DNA of 64,000 nucleotides from Pseudoselenomonas ruminantium (GTDB lineage: Bacteria; Bacillota; Negativicutes; Selenomonadales; Selenomonadaceae), in assembly GCF_900142515.1 (NCBI RefSeq), contig NZ_FRBC01000009.1, positions 1 through 64,000 on the forward strand. Direction: 5' to 3'. The notes under the pieces are model-generated. The model made no database searches and had not been told where the DNA came from. It worked only from the letters and a program-made list of their open reading frames with translations. Positions 1-56,184 of this stretch are shown here, one piece after another (position 1 is the first letter of the stretch; every line of letters starts with the position of its first letter). The position numbers were made by a program, and so were the translations under genes.

Positions 1-348
1 GATTTTGGCAATTGGCACGAACTCGGTTCTCCTGTAACAAGAACATCGATGTGCTTGCACCTTACAGCAAAGGCGTAGTGGTCTTTACGTGCGTATCTTT
101 GGGTGGCGGTGGGGATGCTTTTTCGCCGACGGAACGACTGCCTGAACGAAGTGAAGGCTGGCCCGCAAACAGCATTTGCTGGAAGCTTCGTTGATTGGAG
201 CGCCGTTGGCCTGCCCGGCGCAGGTAGCTGGAAGATGCGTAATTCTGCTGGCGGGTCATTTAGTGGAGCGGCGAAAAAGTATTCCCACCGCCGCCCCACT
301 GAGCTGTAACAAATTTTATTCAGGCTCGCATTGATAAACTGCAATTTA
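1..348. repeat. Partial copy of the large foldback repeat, cut by the window edge
   Basis: This stretch matches 53771-54117 along almost its whole length. The two copies share the GGTGGGGATGC block, the AACGACTG block, the GGCGGGTCATTTAGTGGAGC block and the terminal ACTGCAATTTA. Only the right part of the element is present, because the left arm would lie before position 1. Short reading frames exist on both strands, but they have no ribosome binding site, and the conserved feature is self-complementarity, so I call it non-coding. It fills the region upstream of the mla operon promoters. Confidence 0.8.
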
Positions 349-3348: not shown

Positions 3349-4980
3349 ATGAATAAATTGCGTTTCTATAAAAAACTGACTGCTCTTGTCTTGGGCGGTC
3401 TCATGACTTTTTCCGTCGGTTCTGCGGACGCGGCCAACCGCGTGCAGCTGAATCTGGATGATGCCGTGCAGATGGCGCTCGAGAACAACCGCAGTGTGAA
3501 ACAGGCACTGGCCGGGGTGGATGCTGCCAAATGGAACCTGTCCAACTATCGCCGCCAGACCGGTGTGACGCTGTCGCTGTCTTCCGGCTACAACCGGGTC
3601 AATGATACGCTGGCGCTTAACCACGGAGGGGATAATTCTTATTTCACCAACAGTGCTTCTGCGTCCATTCCCCTTTACAATTTCTCCCTGCGCAGCGGCA
3701 TTGATTCCGCCGGCTATGGGGTGAATGCGGCTGACGTGACGCTGGAGAACACCAAGCAGGCTGTGCGCTATCAGGCTACGGCAGCTTATTACAACATCCT
3801 GAACTACCAGAATCAGATCAAGGTGCAGGAAGATACCGTCCGGGCTTATCAGGAACACCTCGACAACGTAAATGCCCAGTACCGTGTGGGCACCGTTGCC
3901 AAGTCGGATGTGCTGTCTTCGAGCGTCAACCTGGCCAATGCCCAGCAGTCTCTGGTCAGTGCGCAGAACAACTATGATATCGCCGTGGCGACGCTCAATA
4001 ACCTCATTGGCCTGCCCACGGATACGATGCTGGAGATCAAAGATGAATTGCAGCATCCCAGCTATAAATTCGAACTCAGCGATTGCACGAACTATGCGCT
4101 GCAGAACCGTGCAGATGGGGCTGCCGCTTACTATACGGTGAAACAGGCTGAAGCGGGCATCAACAGCGCCAAGGCCGGCTGGTATCCGACGGTGTCGGCT
4201 TCGGCTTCGAAGGCCATAGAGGGCAAGCGGGAATTCCGCGCGGATCACAGCAATGCCTGGACGATCGGTGCTACCGCCAACTGGAATGTCTTCGACAATG
4301 GCGTGACTTCTGCCAGCGTCCATAGTGCGGAAGCCTCGCTGATCAAGGCACAGGAAGCGCTGAAGGCACAGGATGAGACCATCCAGCTCGATGTGCGCAC
4401 GGCACTGCTCAATCTGGAAGCGGCAGAGAAGAATATCAGCACCGCGGAGAAGGCTGTGGCCCAGGCGCAGGAAGACCTCAAGATCGCCAATGTGCGCTAT
4501 GCTGCCGGTGTGGGCACCAACCTGGACGTCATGGACGCCACGGAGAAGATGACGCTGGCCAGCACGAATTACAATGCGGCGCTCTACAGCTACAACGTCA
4601 ATAAGGCAGCGCTCGATAAGGCAATGGGCGTGCCAGTGGATATTGATGTGGCCAAATACAAGGCCTCCCAGATAGAAGGCAATAAGTATAAGCAGGCTCG
4701 GGAAGATGCCAAGCTCAAGGACAATCCGGTACTGGAACTCACACCGGAAGCCATCCAGGCATCCAAGGCTGAAGTGAAGGCCATGCGGGAAAAGGAACTG
4801 GCAGCCCGCAAGGCGGCTAAGGCAGCCAAAGCCGAGAAGAAGAACCAGAACAAGAAGGCCAATAAGAAGGATAAGCCTGCCGCTGCACCGGAAAGTGCAC
4901 CGGCAGAGAGCAGCACATCTGCGCCGGCACCGGAGAAACCGGCCAGCACGGCAGATGTGGCTGGTGAGATGGCAAACTGA
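3349..4980 (+). CDS. TolC-family outer membrane protein with a Lys/Ala/Pro-rich tail
   Basis: This 543-residue outer-membrane factor has a signal peptide (residues 1-28, ending SADAA) and two tandem outer-membrane efflux domains (about 30-220 and 240-440). The domains show the usual coiled helices, with repeated A, Q and N and the LDDAVQMALENN opening. Its likely job is an exit duct for a tripartite exporter, or envelope stability as in other Negativicutes. Beyond about residue 445 there is a 100-residue extension rich in K, A and E, then P, A, S and T, which ordinary TolC proteins lack. The ATG at 3349 has GAGGAGG upstream. No inner-membrane pump is adjacent, so the partner is unknown. Confidence 0.85.
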   Translation: MNKLRFYKKLTALVLGGLMTFSVGSADAANRVQLNLDDAVQMALENNRSVKQALAGVDAAKWNLSNYRRQTGVTLSLSSGYNRVNDTLALNHGGDNSYFTNSASASIPLYNFSLRSGIDSAGYGVNAADVTLENTKQAVRYQATAAYYNILNYQNQIKVQEDTVRAYQEHLDNVNAQYRVGTVAKSDVLSSSVNLANAQQSLVSAQNNYDIAVATLNNLIGLPTDTMLEIKDELQHPSYKFELSDCTNYALQNRADGAAAYYTVKQAEAGINSAKAGWYPTVSASASKAIEGKREFRADHSNAWTIGATANWNVFDNGVTSASVHSAEASLIKAQEALKAQDETIQLDVRTALLNLEAAEKNISTAEKAVAQAQEDLKIANVRYAAGVGTNLDVMDATEKMTLASTNYNAALYSYNVNKAALDKAMGVPVDIDVAKYKASQIEGNKYKQAREDAKLKDNPVLELTPEAIQASKAEVKAMREKELAARKAAKAAKAEKKNQNKKANKKDKPAAAPESAPAESSTSAPAPEKPASTADVAGEMAN

Positions 4981-52159: not shown

Positions 52160-53497
52160 ATGAGTGAAAACGGAAAATTGAAGCGGGGGCTGAAGAACCG
52201 CCATCTGCAGATGATTGCCTTGGGCGGGGCTATCGGCACCGGGCTGTTCTATGGGTCAGCCTCGACGATTGCGCTGGCGGGGCCGGCGGTCATGCTGGCT
52301 TATCTGATCGGCGGCATCATGATTTTCTTCATCATGCGGATGCTCGGGGAGATGGCGGTGGATGAGCCGGTGTCCGGTTCTTTCAGCCATTATGCCACGA
52401 AATATTGGGGCAGGTTTCCGGGCTTCATGTCCGGCTGGAATTATTGGTTCAATTATGTGCTGGTGTCCATGGCCGAGCTTACCGCCGTGGGTATCTATAT
52501 GCAGTTCTGGTTCCCGGACCTGCCGCAGTGGATTGCGGCTTTGATCTGTCTGGTGGCCATTACCGCCTTGAACCTCATCAATGTGCGGCTTTATGGGGAA
52601 ACGGAATTCTGGATGGCGCTGATCAAGATTACGGCCATCGTGCTGATGATTGTACTGGGGTTGTATATTTTGCTGGGCAATCCCCAGCCCTTTCCGCAGA
52701 ACTTCAGCAACCTCTGGAATAACGGCGGCTTCCTGCCCCATGGGATCTGGGGGCTGGCGCTGTCCATCGCCGTGGTCATGTTCTCCTTTGGCGGCATTGA
52801 GCTGATCGGCATTACCGCAGGCGAGGCGGAAAATCCGGACAAGACCATCCCGCAGGCCATCAATCAGGTCATCTGGCGTATCCTCATCTTCTATGTGGGC
52901 ACGATGGCGGTACTCATGGCGCTTTGGCCCTGGAACGAGGTGGGGATGGAGGCCAGTCCCTTCGTGCAGATCTTCATGAGCGTGGGGATTCCTGCCGCGG
53001 CTCATATCCTGAACTTCGTGGTGCTGACGGCGGCGGTGTCGGTCTATAATTCCGCCATCTACAGCAACAGCCGCATGCTCTATGGGTTGGCGGCCAAAGG
53101 TGAGGCCCCTGTGTTTCTGAGCAAGCTTTCCGGGCGCGGCGTGCCGGTGCGGGGCATCCTCCTTTCCTCGGGCATCACGCTGATCTGTGTGGCGCTCAAC
53201 TACTTCTTCCCGGGGAAAATCTTCATGTTCCTGATGTCCATTGCTACCATTGCCGCGACCATCAGCTGGCTGACCATCGTCATCACCCATCTGAAATTCC
53301 GTGCCCATTGCAAGGCGGCAGGCAAGGAGACGAAATTCAAATCGCCGCTCTACCCGTTCGTCAACTACCTCTGCATCGCCTTCCTGCTGGCCATCTGGGG
53401 CCTTATGACGCAGATCGAAGGCATGGATCTGGCGGTCTATATCCTGCCGGTATGGCTCTTGTGCCTCTGGATAGGCTACAAGTATCAAAATAAATAA
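52160..53497 (+). CDS. AAT-family amino acid permease
   Basis: This 445-residue APC-superfamily permease has twelve membrane segments. The N-terminal GLKNRHLQMIALGGAIGTGLF motif is the AAT signature, and EMAVDEPVSGSF is the next family block. The subgroup includes permeases for aromatic amino acids, proline, GABA and D-alanine; the substrate cannot be told from sequence alone. GAAGGGG precedes the ATG. The foldback repeat begins 16 bases after its stop. Confidence 0.9.
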   Translation: MSENGKLKRGLKNRHLQMIALGGAIGTGLFYGSASTIALAGPAVMLAYLIGGIMIFFIMRMLGEMAVDEPVSGSFSHYATKYWGRFPGFMSGWNYWFNYVLVSMAELTAVGIYMQFWFPDLPQWIAALICLVAITALNLINVRLYGETEFWMALIKITAIVLMIVLGLYILLGNPQPFPQNFSNLWNNGGFLPHGIWGLALSIAVVMFSFGGIELIGITAGEAENPDKTIPQAINQVIWRILIFYVGTMAVLMALWPWNEVGMEASPFVQIFMSVGIPAAAHILNFVVLTAAVSVYNSAIYSNSRMLYGLAAKGEAPVFLSKLSGRGVPVRGILLSSGITLICVALNYFFPGKIFMFLMSIATIAATISWLTIVITHLKFRAHCKAAGKETKFKSPLYPFVNYLCIAFLLAIWGLMTQIEGMDLAVYILPVWLLCLWIGYKYQNK

Positions 53498-53512
53498 AAG
53501 CATTTGTGAAGA

Positions 53513-54117
53513 TATTGCAGTTTGTTGGTGCGTTAGTGCCAAAGGCAATCCGTTCATGCGCCGTCAGGGGTTCACGGGGGAGTACTTTTTCTGTTTCCGC
53601 TAAACGACCCTCCCTGCAAGGTTAGAGTTACTTAGCTGAATGCGCCGGGCAGGCCAGCGGCGCGTTTTTCAGCGTGCTCTTTAGCTATTGCCTACGTCGG
53701 GCCGGTCTTCGCTGTCGCTCAGACAGTCGTTCCCACAGAAAAAGCACTCTCCCGTTCGCCCCAAGGCACGATTTTGGGCATTGGCACGAATCGCTTCTCC
53801 CGGAACAAGCACATCGATGTGCTTGCAGCTTACAGCCGGAACATAGCAGTGTACACCAACGTAACTTTGGGTGGAGGTGGGGATGCTTTTTCGCCGACGG
53901 AACGACTGTCCGAACGAAGTGAGGACTGGCCCGCAAACAGCATGTGCTGGAAGTTGCGTTGATAGACGCGCCGCCGGCCTGCCCGGCGCCAAGTTGCTGG
54001 AAGTTACGTACTTTTGCTGGCGGGTCATTTAGTGGAGCGGCGAAAAAGTATTCCCACCGCCGCCCCATTGCTTTGTAACGAATTGTGTTCCAGCTCGCAT
54101 CAGCAAACTGCAATTTA
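53513..54117. repeat. Large foldback (giant hairpin) repeat, full copy
   Basis: A 605-base element whose left half pairs with its right half in nested order. The ends pair (53513-53532 with 54096-54117; ATTGCAGTTTG against CAAACTGCAAT), then 53567-53610 with 54022-54066. Next, 53642-53664 pairs with 53967-53989 (22 of 23), 53699-53733 with 53899-53932, and 53736-53765 with 53865-53893. The tip holds AAGCACATCGATGTGCTT, a perfect palindrome. A partial copy is at 1-348. The inner arm 53869-53895 can also pair with 54039-54066, giving a second fold. Reading frames inside have no support. It fills the gap between the permease and the oxidoreductase. Confidence 0.85.
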
Positions 54118-54120
54118 GAG

Positions 54121-54156
54121 AAAACATCCGTTGACATTTTGGTCAACGGACGTTTT
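54121..54156. terminator. Bidirectional terminator beside the foldback repeat
   Basis: CCGTTGAC pairs with GTCAACGG across a short loop, with AAAAC on the left and GTTTT on the right. It can end the minus-strand oxidoreductase operon. Confidence 0.75.
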
Positions 54157-54186
54157 GGTCTATGAAGGGGATTTTCCGATCTACTT

Positions 54187-56184
54187 TTATTTGGGGGCGA
54201 TGTTGACGAAGACGTCGTAGAAGGCTACGCCGGAGGCGGAGGTGGTCAGCAGGCCAAGGTCGGTGGGGACGCCGGAGTTCAGGACGTTGAGTCCGCCTTT
54301 CTGGCTGGCGCCCTGCATGCTCAGGATGATGTCCGGGGCGAGGTCTGTGCGGAATCTGACGCTGACGGTGATCTGCCCCTGTTCGTTCCAGACGACGGCG
54401 GGATGCAGGTCCTGAAGCTGGTGTTTTCGGGCTGCATCCGGATGGATGTAGACTAGCGGATACTCTGACATGAGATGGTGCTGGTGATAACTTTGGCCGT
54501 TGATATGTTCCTGGGCATGGGGCGTCAGGAAATGGAACGGATATTCTTTGGTGGGCAGCATTTGGGGGAAATCCTTCGGCAGGGTGCAGCAGTGGAATCT
54601 GCCATCCGCGGTGGCAAAGCGGCCGTCCTGCCACGGATATGCCTGATGCCGGAAGCGGGCAGGGCCTTGATAGAGGTCCTGCCATTTTTTTATGTGCAAA
54701 GCCTGACAGACTGCGGGCGTGAATTCGGCAGCGAGGAATTCCTCATCACGGCGATGGGCAGGGAATGTGCTGGTGCCGGGGGCCAGCTCATTGAGGCGGC
54801 GCGTCAGCAGGCGGGCAATCTCCAGATCGCTTTTGGCTTCCCCTTGTGGAGGGATGGCGGGTTCGTTCAGGCCCACCCAATGGCGGAAGTAGCTGCCGTA
54901 TACATCGAGTTCCTCAAATTCGGTGGTGACCGGCAGGACAATATCCGCCATCTGCGCGGAGTGCGTCAGGAACTTATCGGCCACCACCACCAGTTCCAGT
55001 TGAGACCAGAATTGCAGCAGGTCTTTCAGTCCCACATCCTGCCGCAGCAGATCACGGCAGGCTATCCAGAGGAATTTTATCGGAGGATCGGTGAGGTCCT
55101 GCAGGCTTTGGGCGAAGTTGTTGATATTGACGAAGCGGGTGTCCTGGCGCTTTTGCATGATATGGAAGGGGAAAATATCCATGCCCTTGTCGGCAAAGTT
55201 CACACCGCCGCCGGGAATGCCGATATTGCCGGTGAGCAGGGAAAGCGCATCGATCAGGCGGATGGTCAGTCCGCCTTGAATGTGGCGTTGCAGGCCAAAG
55301 CCGCACCAGATATGGGTAGGATGGTTTTCGGCAAGCAGGCCAGCCAGGAAAGAGATGGCTTCATCGGTTTGTCCGACAGCCTTCAGCAGGGGCGCGGCAG
55401 GCATTTGCAAAGCGGCATCGATAAGTTCTGCGGCACCTGTTGTTTGGTCGGGATTGTAGGAAAGCTTTTGTGTCTTAGCCAGTTTTTGCAGCAGCAGGAC
55501 AGTCAGCGCAGCATCCCCGCCAGGGCGCAGTTCGATATAGTAATCGGCCTTGCGGGCGGTTTCCGTGTATACCGGGTCGATTACCACGACTTTTGCGCCG
55601 CGTTCCTGAGCGGCGTAGATGATGGGCATGGTATGGACGGAGGTCCAGGCGGGGTTGATGCCCCAGAGGATGATCAGTCTTGCTTCCAGCATCTGGCGGA
55701 TATCAGCCGTCACATTGGCGCCAAAATCCAGCCGCTGCGCATCCAGACCAGAGGAGAAACAGGGCGTGCCGGTGGTCTGGGTGGTAGGGCCGAGGCTGTT
55801 GAACATTCCCTCGGCGGCGTAATGGAGCAGGCTGAAATTGCCCGAATACTTGTTGAGGCAAAGGGGGAGGGTGGAATGGTAGCGTTCTTTCAGCTCCAGG
55901 ATCTTCCGGGCAATGATATCGATGGCCTCGTTCCAGGAAATCTGCTGCCATTGGCCGGACCCGCGCCTCAACTGGCGCTGGGGATAGAGCAGGCGCTGGG
56001 GATGATAGACTGTGGCGAGGATTTCTTCCCGCTTGCTGCAAAGCCGGCCGGAGGCACCTTCTTTTTTATCACCGGTGATGTATTCGAGTTTTCCACCGCG
56101 GGTATAGGCCAGTATGGGACAGGAGTCGTAGCAGTTGCGGGGACATATATGGCGGGTGACTTGACAATTGCCGTGAAAAAACAT
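54187..56184 (-). CDS. Molybdopterin-dependent oxidoreductase (YyaE-like)
   Basis: This 665-residue member of the DMSO-reductase superfamily has an N-terminal Fe-S site from cysteines 14, 18, 22 and 49 (HICPRNCYDSC, GRLCSK). The cofactor-binding core spans about 60-540 (WNEAIDIIARKI, ILWGINPAW, IWCGFG), and the C-terminal dinucleotide-binding domain about 545-660. No Tat signal is seen, so it is probably cytoplasmic. Length and layout resemble Bacillus YyaE; the substrate is unknown. The start lies behind AAAGGAGG on the minus strand, 20 bases after the polyferredoxin gene, its likely electron partner. Confidence 0.88.
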   Translation of the reverse strand: MFFHGNCQVTRHICPRNCYDSCPILAYTRGGKLEYITGDKKEGASGRLCSKREEILATVYHPQRLLYPQRQLRRGSGQWQQISWNEAIDIIARKILELKERYHSTLPLCLNKYSGNFSLLHYAAEGMFNSLGPTTQTTGTPCFSSGLDAQRLDFGANVTADIRQMLEARLIILWGINPAWTSVHTMPIIYAAQERGAKVVVIDPVYTETARKADYYIELRPGGDAALTVLLLQKLAKTQKLSYNPDQTTGAAELIDAALQMPAAPLLKAVGQTDEAISFLAGLLAENHPTHIWCGFGLQRHIQGGLTIRLIDALSLLTGNIGIPGGGVNFADKGMDIFPFHIMQKRQDTRFVNINNFAQSLQDLTDPPIKFLWIACRDLLRQDVGLKDLLQFWSQLELVVVADKFLTHSAQMADIVLPVTTEFEELDVYGSYFRHWVGLNEPAIPPQGEAKSDLEIARLLTRRLNELAPGTSTFPAHRRDEEFLAAEFTPAVCQALHIKKWQDLYQGPARFRHQAYPWQDGRFATADGRFHCCTLPKDFPQMLPTKEYPFHFLTPHAQEHINGQSYHQHHLMSEYPLVYIHPDAARKHQLQDLHPAVVWNEQGQITVSVRFRTDLAPDIILSMQGASQKGGLNVLNSGVPTDLGLLTTSASGVAFYDVFVNIAPK

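Follow-up and report, generated by a model that had tools for sequence, protein, structure and literature searches.

Structured intergenic repeats have been known for decades, and gene conversion was already raised as a possible mode of REP evolution in the title of a 1988 review. Units of REP size offer little length for telling selection, transposition and conversion apart. Large structured bacterial RNAs, such as OLE, GOLLD, ROOL and HEARO, extend over hundreds of nucleotides and are formed by multiple covarying helices. A survey of stem-loop repeats describes Efa-1 and Pae-1 as predicted double hairpins and Ppu-1 as a 617-bp model with 39 sequences; the name Selenomonas does not occur in its main text (PMC2267715). 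The bcr repeats of the Bacillus cereus group are reported to be group-restricted and 100-400 bp in length, with bcr1 averaging 39 copies per strain (PMC6542083). REP units are given as 20-40 bp (PMC3733652), whereas the element studied here consists of units of ~190 nt with a branched interior. Nothing on this element was found in open-access papers.

The element was found in a 64,000-nt stretch of DNA, below referred to as the window. The initial annotation described nested pairing blocks at positions 53513-54117, a perfect 18-base palindrome at their tip and a second copy at the start of the window. All the blocks were found, as was the palindrome, and the second copy proved to be a partial one. 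The predicted RNA folding energy of positions 53514-54114 is -315.1 kcal/mol, compared to -220.0 +/- 5.4 for 20 dinucleotide shuffles (z -17.65). The features are as follows:

53514-54114, no strand: whole element, ~601 bp, an end-to-end imperfect palindrome (read directly and from own-genome copies)
53514-53532, plus strand: left terminal inverted repeat ATTGCAGTTTG..., pairs with 54096-54114 (block I4)
54096-54114, minus strand: right terminal inverted repeat CAAACTGCAAT, partner of 53514-53532 (block I4)
53642-53674 with 53957-53989: inverted-repeat pairing, block I1
53715-53733 with 53899-53917: inverted-repeat pairing, block I5
53567-53594, plus strand: left unit, arm A of the outer stem P1, partner at 53735-53762 (block I3)
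53735-53762, plus strand: left unit, arm A' of the outer stem P1, partner of arm A
53869-53896, plus strand: right unit, arm B of the outer stem P1, partner at 54038-54065 (block I2, alternative fold)
54038-54065, plus strand: right unit, arm B' of the outer stem P1, partner of arm B
53594-53734, minus strand: interior of the left folded unit (covariance model R1, 130.6 bits)
53898-54038, plus strand: interior of the right folded unit (covariance model R1, 134.3 bits)
53908-53926, plus strand: H1 hairpin with a GAA loop and tandem GA mismatches (alignment A2, columns 13-32)
53927-54027, plus strand: P2, TGGCCCGC (53927-53934) with GCGGGTCA (54020-54027)
53968-53990, plus strand: H2 hairpin, GCGCCG/CGGCGC
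53807-53824, no strand: central 18-bp palindrome AAGCACATCGATGTGCTT (read directly)
1-345, plus strand: partial second copy, 84% identical, cut by the contig end, with a unit at 130-269
54127-54150, plus strand: intrinsic-terminator-like hairpin just beyond the element (block I7)

The element lies between an ORF at 52160-53497, which we take from its translation to be amino-acid-permease-like, and a minus-strand ORF at 54187-56184, presumably, again from the translation, molybdopterin-oxidoreductase-like. The view of the initial annotation that no reading frame is supported held up: few copies (3, 19 and 4 of 109, respectively) leave at least 80% of the length of the three ORFs seen in the window copy (153, 115 and 82 aa) free of stops. 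The longest stop-free runs of the copies span 63-168 codons (median 108, as against 89 in mononucleotide shuffles of 60 copies), and in 46 of 103 copies the longest one is on the plus strand near position 200. A coding role was rejected since the ORFs are not kept across copies, with stop-free runs somewhat above those of the shuffles. Searches against Rfam gave no match at gathering score in the window and none at E<=5 for positions 53480-54160. The terminator-like hairpin is not significant alone (one found, 1.1 +/- 1.2 in shuffles).

A BLAST search of the own genome returned 73 matches, many of which are cut by contig ends, with 13 near-full-length places of 78-100% identity. The window itself and contigs C10, C11, C18, C35, C46, C49, C52 and C58 (the last from its base 10) start inside copies, from which it follows that the repeat breaks assemblies. 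Seventeen of 60 relatives searched (the own genome included) carry a match. These comprise 15 of 22 same-genus genomes, each with multiple copies, and two genomes with one short match each, one more of the genus (G019) and one of another genus (G035). The initial annotation had called the sequence repeated, structured, non-coding and unrecognised, and on all four counts it was borne out. A sequence search of 189 family genomes gave 17 with a match, as among the 60 relatives. The genome G011 has 31 near-full places, all on a single contig and clustered near its start (KS p 0.012). G017 has 25 loci (17 near-full, 5 IS-interrupted and 3 tip-deleted); all those listed are on its 3.0-Mb replicon, with no such clustering (p 0.47). 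A pattern scan of named genomes retrieved at least 119 loci; among the matches listed, 99 are from Selenomonas ruminantium and 20 from scattered unrelated taxa, the latter in line with the chance matches expected there.

In total, 122 copies were extracted. Both ends lie within 4 mismatches of 12 in 109 of them and form 11-bp inverted repeats; the other 13 failed this end test. Six of the 109 fell outside 580-615 nt, and the remaining 103 thus have this length by selection. The core of the central palindrome, ACATCGATGT, is present in 95 of the 103. The 103-row set holds no copy from G002 or G013, whose elements (L044, L045, L163, L164 and L165) have an extra block inserted in the left arm; it reads CCTTCCCC...GGAAGG...GCGCGAAGCGC in four of the five, with a longer variant in L164. 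Five copies from these two genomes were used in another comparison, and some of their units are in alignments A1 and A2.

A phage origin was rejected, as no phage record matched the element. Five viral contigs matched a 20-base GC-rich pattern; in four of them the score of model R1 was confined to 22-25 nt of H2 (L172 9621-9642, L173 12030-12051, L175 2166-2190 and L171 1391-1413, probably by chance), and L174 received none. A plasmid element was likewise rejected, as one plasmid record only, S. ruminantium pSR1 (L061, NC_002139.1, 4.7 kb), has a copy, and a partial one. It is left-truncated, spans the record start (4368-4692 and 1-157) and adjoins radical SAM and HAMP-domain genes; our guess is that pSR1 may be a circularised chromosomal piece.

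The conserved ends with their 11-bp inverted repeats and the high copy number would suit an actively transposing MITE or foldback element that is moved in trans by a transposase recognising the terminal repeats. The junctions argue against this. Direct repeats of at least 5 nt (offset 0-3) were found at none of 107 copies, in line with what the initial annotation had seen at the window copy (no obvious target duplication), and the frequency of shorter ones is close to that in shuffled flank pairs. A non-exhaustive look for an autonomous relative turned up a single kind of gene within copies, that of an IS1182-family IS. In G017, five of the six copies of this IS (L359-L364) are inside elements (L118-L122) and flanked by 9-bp duplications. 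Four of them share one insertion point in the P1 of the right unit, and the fifth sits at the mirror-image position of the left unit. The element is thus a preferred IS target in one genome. The idea that it is an IS-carried passenger was dropped, since the gene arrived by secondary insertion of an IS with its own ends and its own 9-bp duplications. REPs, too, have been reported as IS targets (PMC1525189).

One transposase family, Y1 (PF01797), was examined for an association with the element. It is absent from 7 of 17 same-genus carriers (G001, G002, G006, G011, G012, G014 and G017), present in the other 10, and also present in three of five non-carriers (G008, G019 and G021; a fragment in G019). 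Genes of Y1 transposases do not track the element, and a RAYT-driven REPIN is therefore not supported.

According to the initial annotation, two folds compete in this sequence. The consensus fold of the 103 copies consists of two separate hairpins, A-A' (53567-53594/53735-53762) and B-B' (53869-53896/54038-54065). In this local fold, 27 of 69 pairs have changed on both sides, as compared to 6-8 when the partners are slid by 1-3 columns. When the observed substitutions were replayed on the tree as a null, 8 of the 69 local pairs were found to covary at E<0.05, and none of the 202 long-range, end-to-end pairs. The annotation had held that independent drift of the two arms would argue against a structured RNA; in the 103 copies the end-to-end arms do drift, and the local hairpins are held by compensatory change. 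Covarying pairs are seen at 53585/53741 and 53594/53732 in the left P1 (positions approximate where alignment columns were dropped), and two more in the right P1 (alignment columns 370/540 and 385/525). Without any proposed structure, covariation was significant at one pair only.

Variation within single genomes was used as a second source of evidence, with local pairs scorable only in G011, G003 (1 pair) and G004 (4 pairs). In G011, the mean association of 8 variable local partner pairs is 0.52, versus 0.10 in controls (other pairs 100-480 nt apart), and that of 16 long-range partner pairs is 0.10. Long-range partners exceed controls, over few pairs, in G000 (0.47 vs 0.20, 4 pairs), G005 (0.48 vs 0.27, 3 pairs) and G004 (0.58 vs 0.35, 6 pairs), and do not in G003, G009, G011 and G012. 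In some species, then, the giant fold may retain a role. In folding calculations, the giant hairpin is preferred by all 12 copies used from the own genome and by all 16 of G017; the numbers elsewhere are 9/24 in G011, 0/3 in G016, 1/5 in G001, 6/8 in G005 and 5/6 in G004. In six other genomes, 72-93% of the cells of the own-genome giant fold stay paired. Thus, the proposed competition stands as a matter of thermodynamics in the own genome, but only the local fold has cross-species covariation support. The giant single hairpin was rejected as the conserved form, given the absence of significant covariation at its pairs and the many copies elsewhere that do not prefer it. The element is composed of two inverted copies of a smaller folded unit.

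As can be seen from the comparison of the two hairpins, the right one is homologous to the reverse complement of the left. Each unit begins with the long outer stem P1, followed by hairpin H1, helix P2 (TGGCCCG/CGGGTCA) and hairpin H2 (GCGCCG/CGGCGC), and includes a TTTAG(C/T)G stretch that is conserved. The H1 loop is mostly a GNA triloop (it has four bases in some left units, including that of the window), and tandem GA mismatches are present in most units. Alignment A1 contains 33 units, with P1 misaligned between left and right ones, and for this reason neither A2 (26 aligned units from 13 genomes and two genera) nor model R1 includes P1. In A2, 8 of 20 interior pairs change on both sides (3 of 6 in H1, 3 of 8 in P2 and 2 of 6 in H2, where one change is seen only in G205, from another genus), and no standard pair changes on one side only. 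None of 500 shuffles reached the covariation score of the interior. P1 varies in sequence from locus to locus; nonetheless, in 19 of 21 units the best score is obtained when an arm is matched with its own partner.

Model R1 found the unit interior in 25 of 189 family genomes, i.e., in six of 30 genera, at E<=0.01, the match being weak in two of the six (via G081 and G197). Class-wide, 24 of 380 genomes matched at E<=0.001, all within this family. Both searches used stricter filters, at the cost of weak matches. In the S. ruminantium group, two units form an inverted pair between short terminal inverted repeats. In the fetched stretches of other genomes, the unit is single in G035, G207, G210 and G014, in tandem in G031 and G095, and an inverted pair, as in Selenomonas, at one of three G205 loci. 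A relative of ~720 nt, found at seven of eight G014 loci (L336-L341 and L343) and one of two G015 loci (L355), combines one unit with a different large hairpin built around a long GC-rich stem. About 110 nt downstream of the single unit of G035 (L047 1702-1871) there is a T-box-like match, which at 68.7 bits falls short of the gathering score (93).

Substitutions in the helices were counted on the tree. With narrower helices, Watson-Crick pairs changed to G-U 34 times, to A-C 36 times and to another Watson-Crick pair 41 times. These numbers replace an earlier count (53 G-U vs 96 A-C) that had included edge columns and misassigned left-unit P2 pairs. One reading attributes the complementarity of the arms solely to template switching within a quasi-palindrome, in which one arm is rewritten from the other, with no selected structure. 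The excess of double Watson-Crick changes over each single class is what such copying predicts, and so is P1, often perfect or nearly so over 20-25 bp in a locus-specific sequence. Fixed mismatches nonetheless persist in most copies, though correction would erase them, and the interior matches the covariance model in six genera; we consider this reading very unlikely.

Helices that are kept as RNA are expected to tolerate G-U over A-C on the functional strand. The totals above show no such preference, nor does P1 of the other genera (11 G-U vs 8 A-C). H1 alone (4 vs 0) would suit RNA, as would three fixed P1 columns that are G-U in unit orientation in 84-93 of 103 copies; a fourth fixed wobble column, at the stem edge, is A-C in 54 copies. 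Both single-stranded DNA and RNA can form stable GNA loops and tandem GA mismatches. The substitution patterns lean to constraint at the DNA level, which is short of proof.

Neighbouring genes bear on the same question. Among the 105 of 109 copies with an ORF of at least 90 codons on each flank, 39 lie between convergent, 51 between co-directional and 15 between divergent ORFs, at median distances of 60 and 61 nt (simple ORF caller, flanks only), and 129 of the 210 neighbouring ORF ends are 3' ends. A hairpin of the CCGYTGRC...GYCARCGG type lies within 120 nt of an end in 30 of 109 copies (54121-54156 in the window); being near-constant, it may be a repeated terminator of the genus.

The element could be a large two-domain non-coding RNA or mRNA 3'-end element, transcribed from each copy and acting in stability or attenuation or as a sponge or scaffold. 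Compensatory change in H1, P2, H2 and P1, the loop and tandem GA mismatches kept in most units, the three fixed wobble columns and the predominance of gene 3' ends all agree with it. We nevertheless judge an RNA unlikely, because G-U is not favoured over A-C, the two units are on opposite strands, the region has a single promoter-like site (0.5 +/- 0.7 in shuffles), no Rfam family matches and the relation to genes is not fixed. The initial annotation had left the choice between a foldback mobile element and a large RNA; the substitutions incline to DNA, and mobility is visible only as differing site occupancy, with no transposase link found.

Comparison of flanks identified 39 cases in which two species have a copy at a shared site. 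The identity of the element at these orthologous sites is 82.8%, as compared to 82.6% with the other copies of the partner genome, and 89.5% in the flanks; the ortholog is the best match in only 4 of the 39 pairs. Linkage (r2) between variable sites decays with distance in all six genomes tested, and in each of them none of 200 permutations gave so low a value. Unlike orthologs combined with decaying linkage are the pattern that concerted evolution by short-tract gene conversion would give; unlike orthologous copies could alternatively come from repeated invasion of the sites already used. For some of the tip-deleted forms (four site pairs), the ortholog in a relative is full-length, so these deletions arose in place.

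Some sites differ between species, as would suit a MITE. Of ten G011 sites, nine are occupied by two units in G012, and at the tenth, which lies at a contig end there, only part of a unit is present. In G009, two of the ten are without a unit (at one of these, a plain terminator-like hairpin stands where G011 has the element), a third has one unit, and a fourth has a stretch resembling a decayed P1 by eye that the model does not match. No clean empty site with a duplication was found: the sites without the element also differ in the remaining intergenic sequence. At L427 (G012 contig C3 36200-39100, orthologous to L100), ~2.5 kb between the same flanks comprise an element and ~1.9 kb of other sequence. 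Together with the unduplicated junctions and the lack of a Y1 link, the nine G011 sites of ten that are also filled in G012 and the sites that keep their copies while the sequence turns over make an actively transposing element improbable.

The observations above establish that the element is repeated, structured, spread over several genera and turned over in sequence. We find it somewhat better than an even bet that it is a non-autonomous repeat without coding function, interspersed in the genome and built from a conserved folded unit of ~190 nt, and that it is DNA-level, gene-converted and REPIN/ERIC/BIME-like. Copies would have arisen by rare insertion, would sit more often at gene 3' ends and would now be homogenised by short-tract ectopic gene conversion. 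The form that matters would be folded DNA, a hairpin or cruciform, either on a displaced or lagging strand or protein-bound; we infer this from helix substitutions without G-U tolerance and from the inverted pair, which gives one unit per strand. By analogy, the element is most likely a giant counterpart of REPIN, ERIC and BIME repeats and not a gene; its folded DNA would be copied in trans or would bind a chromosomal protein. On a broader proposition, large modular sites of folded DNA would form a class extending across the family, with inherited positions and a sequence that circulates among copies by ectopic gene conversion; we would stop just short of calling this probable. If it is true, dozens of copies of a 600-bp non-coding structure are kept in concert, as with rRNA genes, and the old idea that REP-type repeats evolve by gene conversion becomes directly measurable. 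Since the element is long enough for a covariation signal and has comparable sites across species and exchange between copies, the maintenance of a repeated folded site can be measured in it.

The large structured RNAs OLE, GOLLD, ROOL and HEARO differ from the element, which has no Rfam match, occurs in tens of copies per genome and forms inverted pairs. With the bcr repeats the likeness is one of description: judging by the account in PMC6542083, they are similarly group-restricted, but the element is larger, has two units and covarying helices and is without junction duplication. That account links bcr mobility to a TTTAT motif. In about 31 of 107 copies, the right end of the element is ...GCAATTTAT; this belongs to a terminal repeat that the left end mirrors in 23. 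Like ERIC, bcr1, YPAL, Efa-1, Pae-1 and Ppu-1, the element is interspersed, often intergenic and of a shared predicted structure; compared to these families as presented in PMC2267715, it has cross-species covariation support and a resident copy that turns over at a fixed site. With REPINs, as described in PMC3116915, it shares an extragenic location, many copies and an inverted two-unit layout able to form a hairpin in single-stranded DNA or mRNA. Of the features that define REPINs and REP-BIMEs, the inverted doublet is present in the element, and the short unit size and the association with RAYT are absent; unlike in REPINs, there is no link to a Y1 (RAYT-type) transposase, and the units also occur in tandem and singly. 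On unit size and transposase link the element thus falls outside the REPINs, and we therefore place it as a new variety of structured interspersed repeat.
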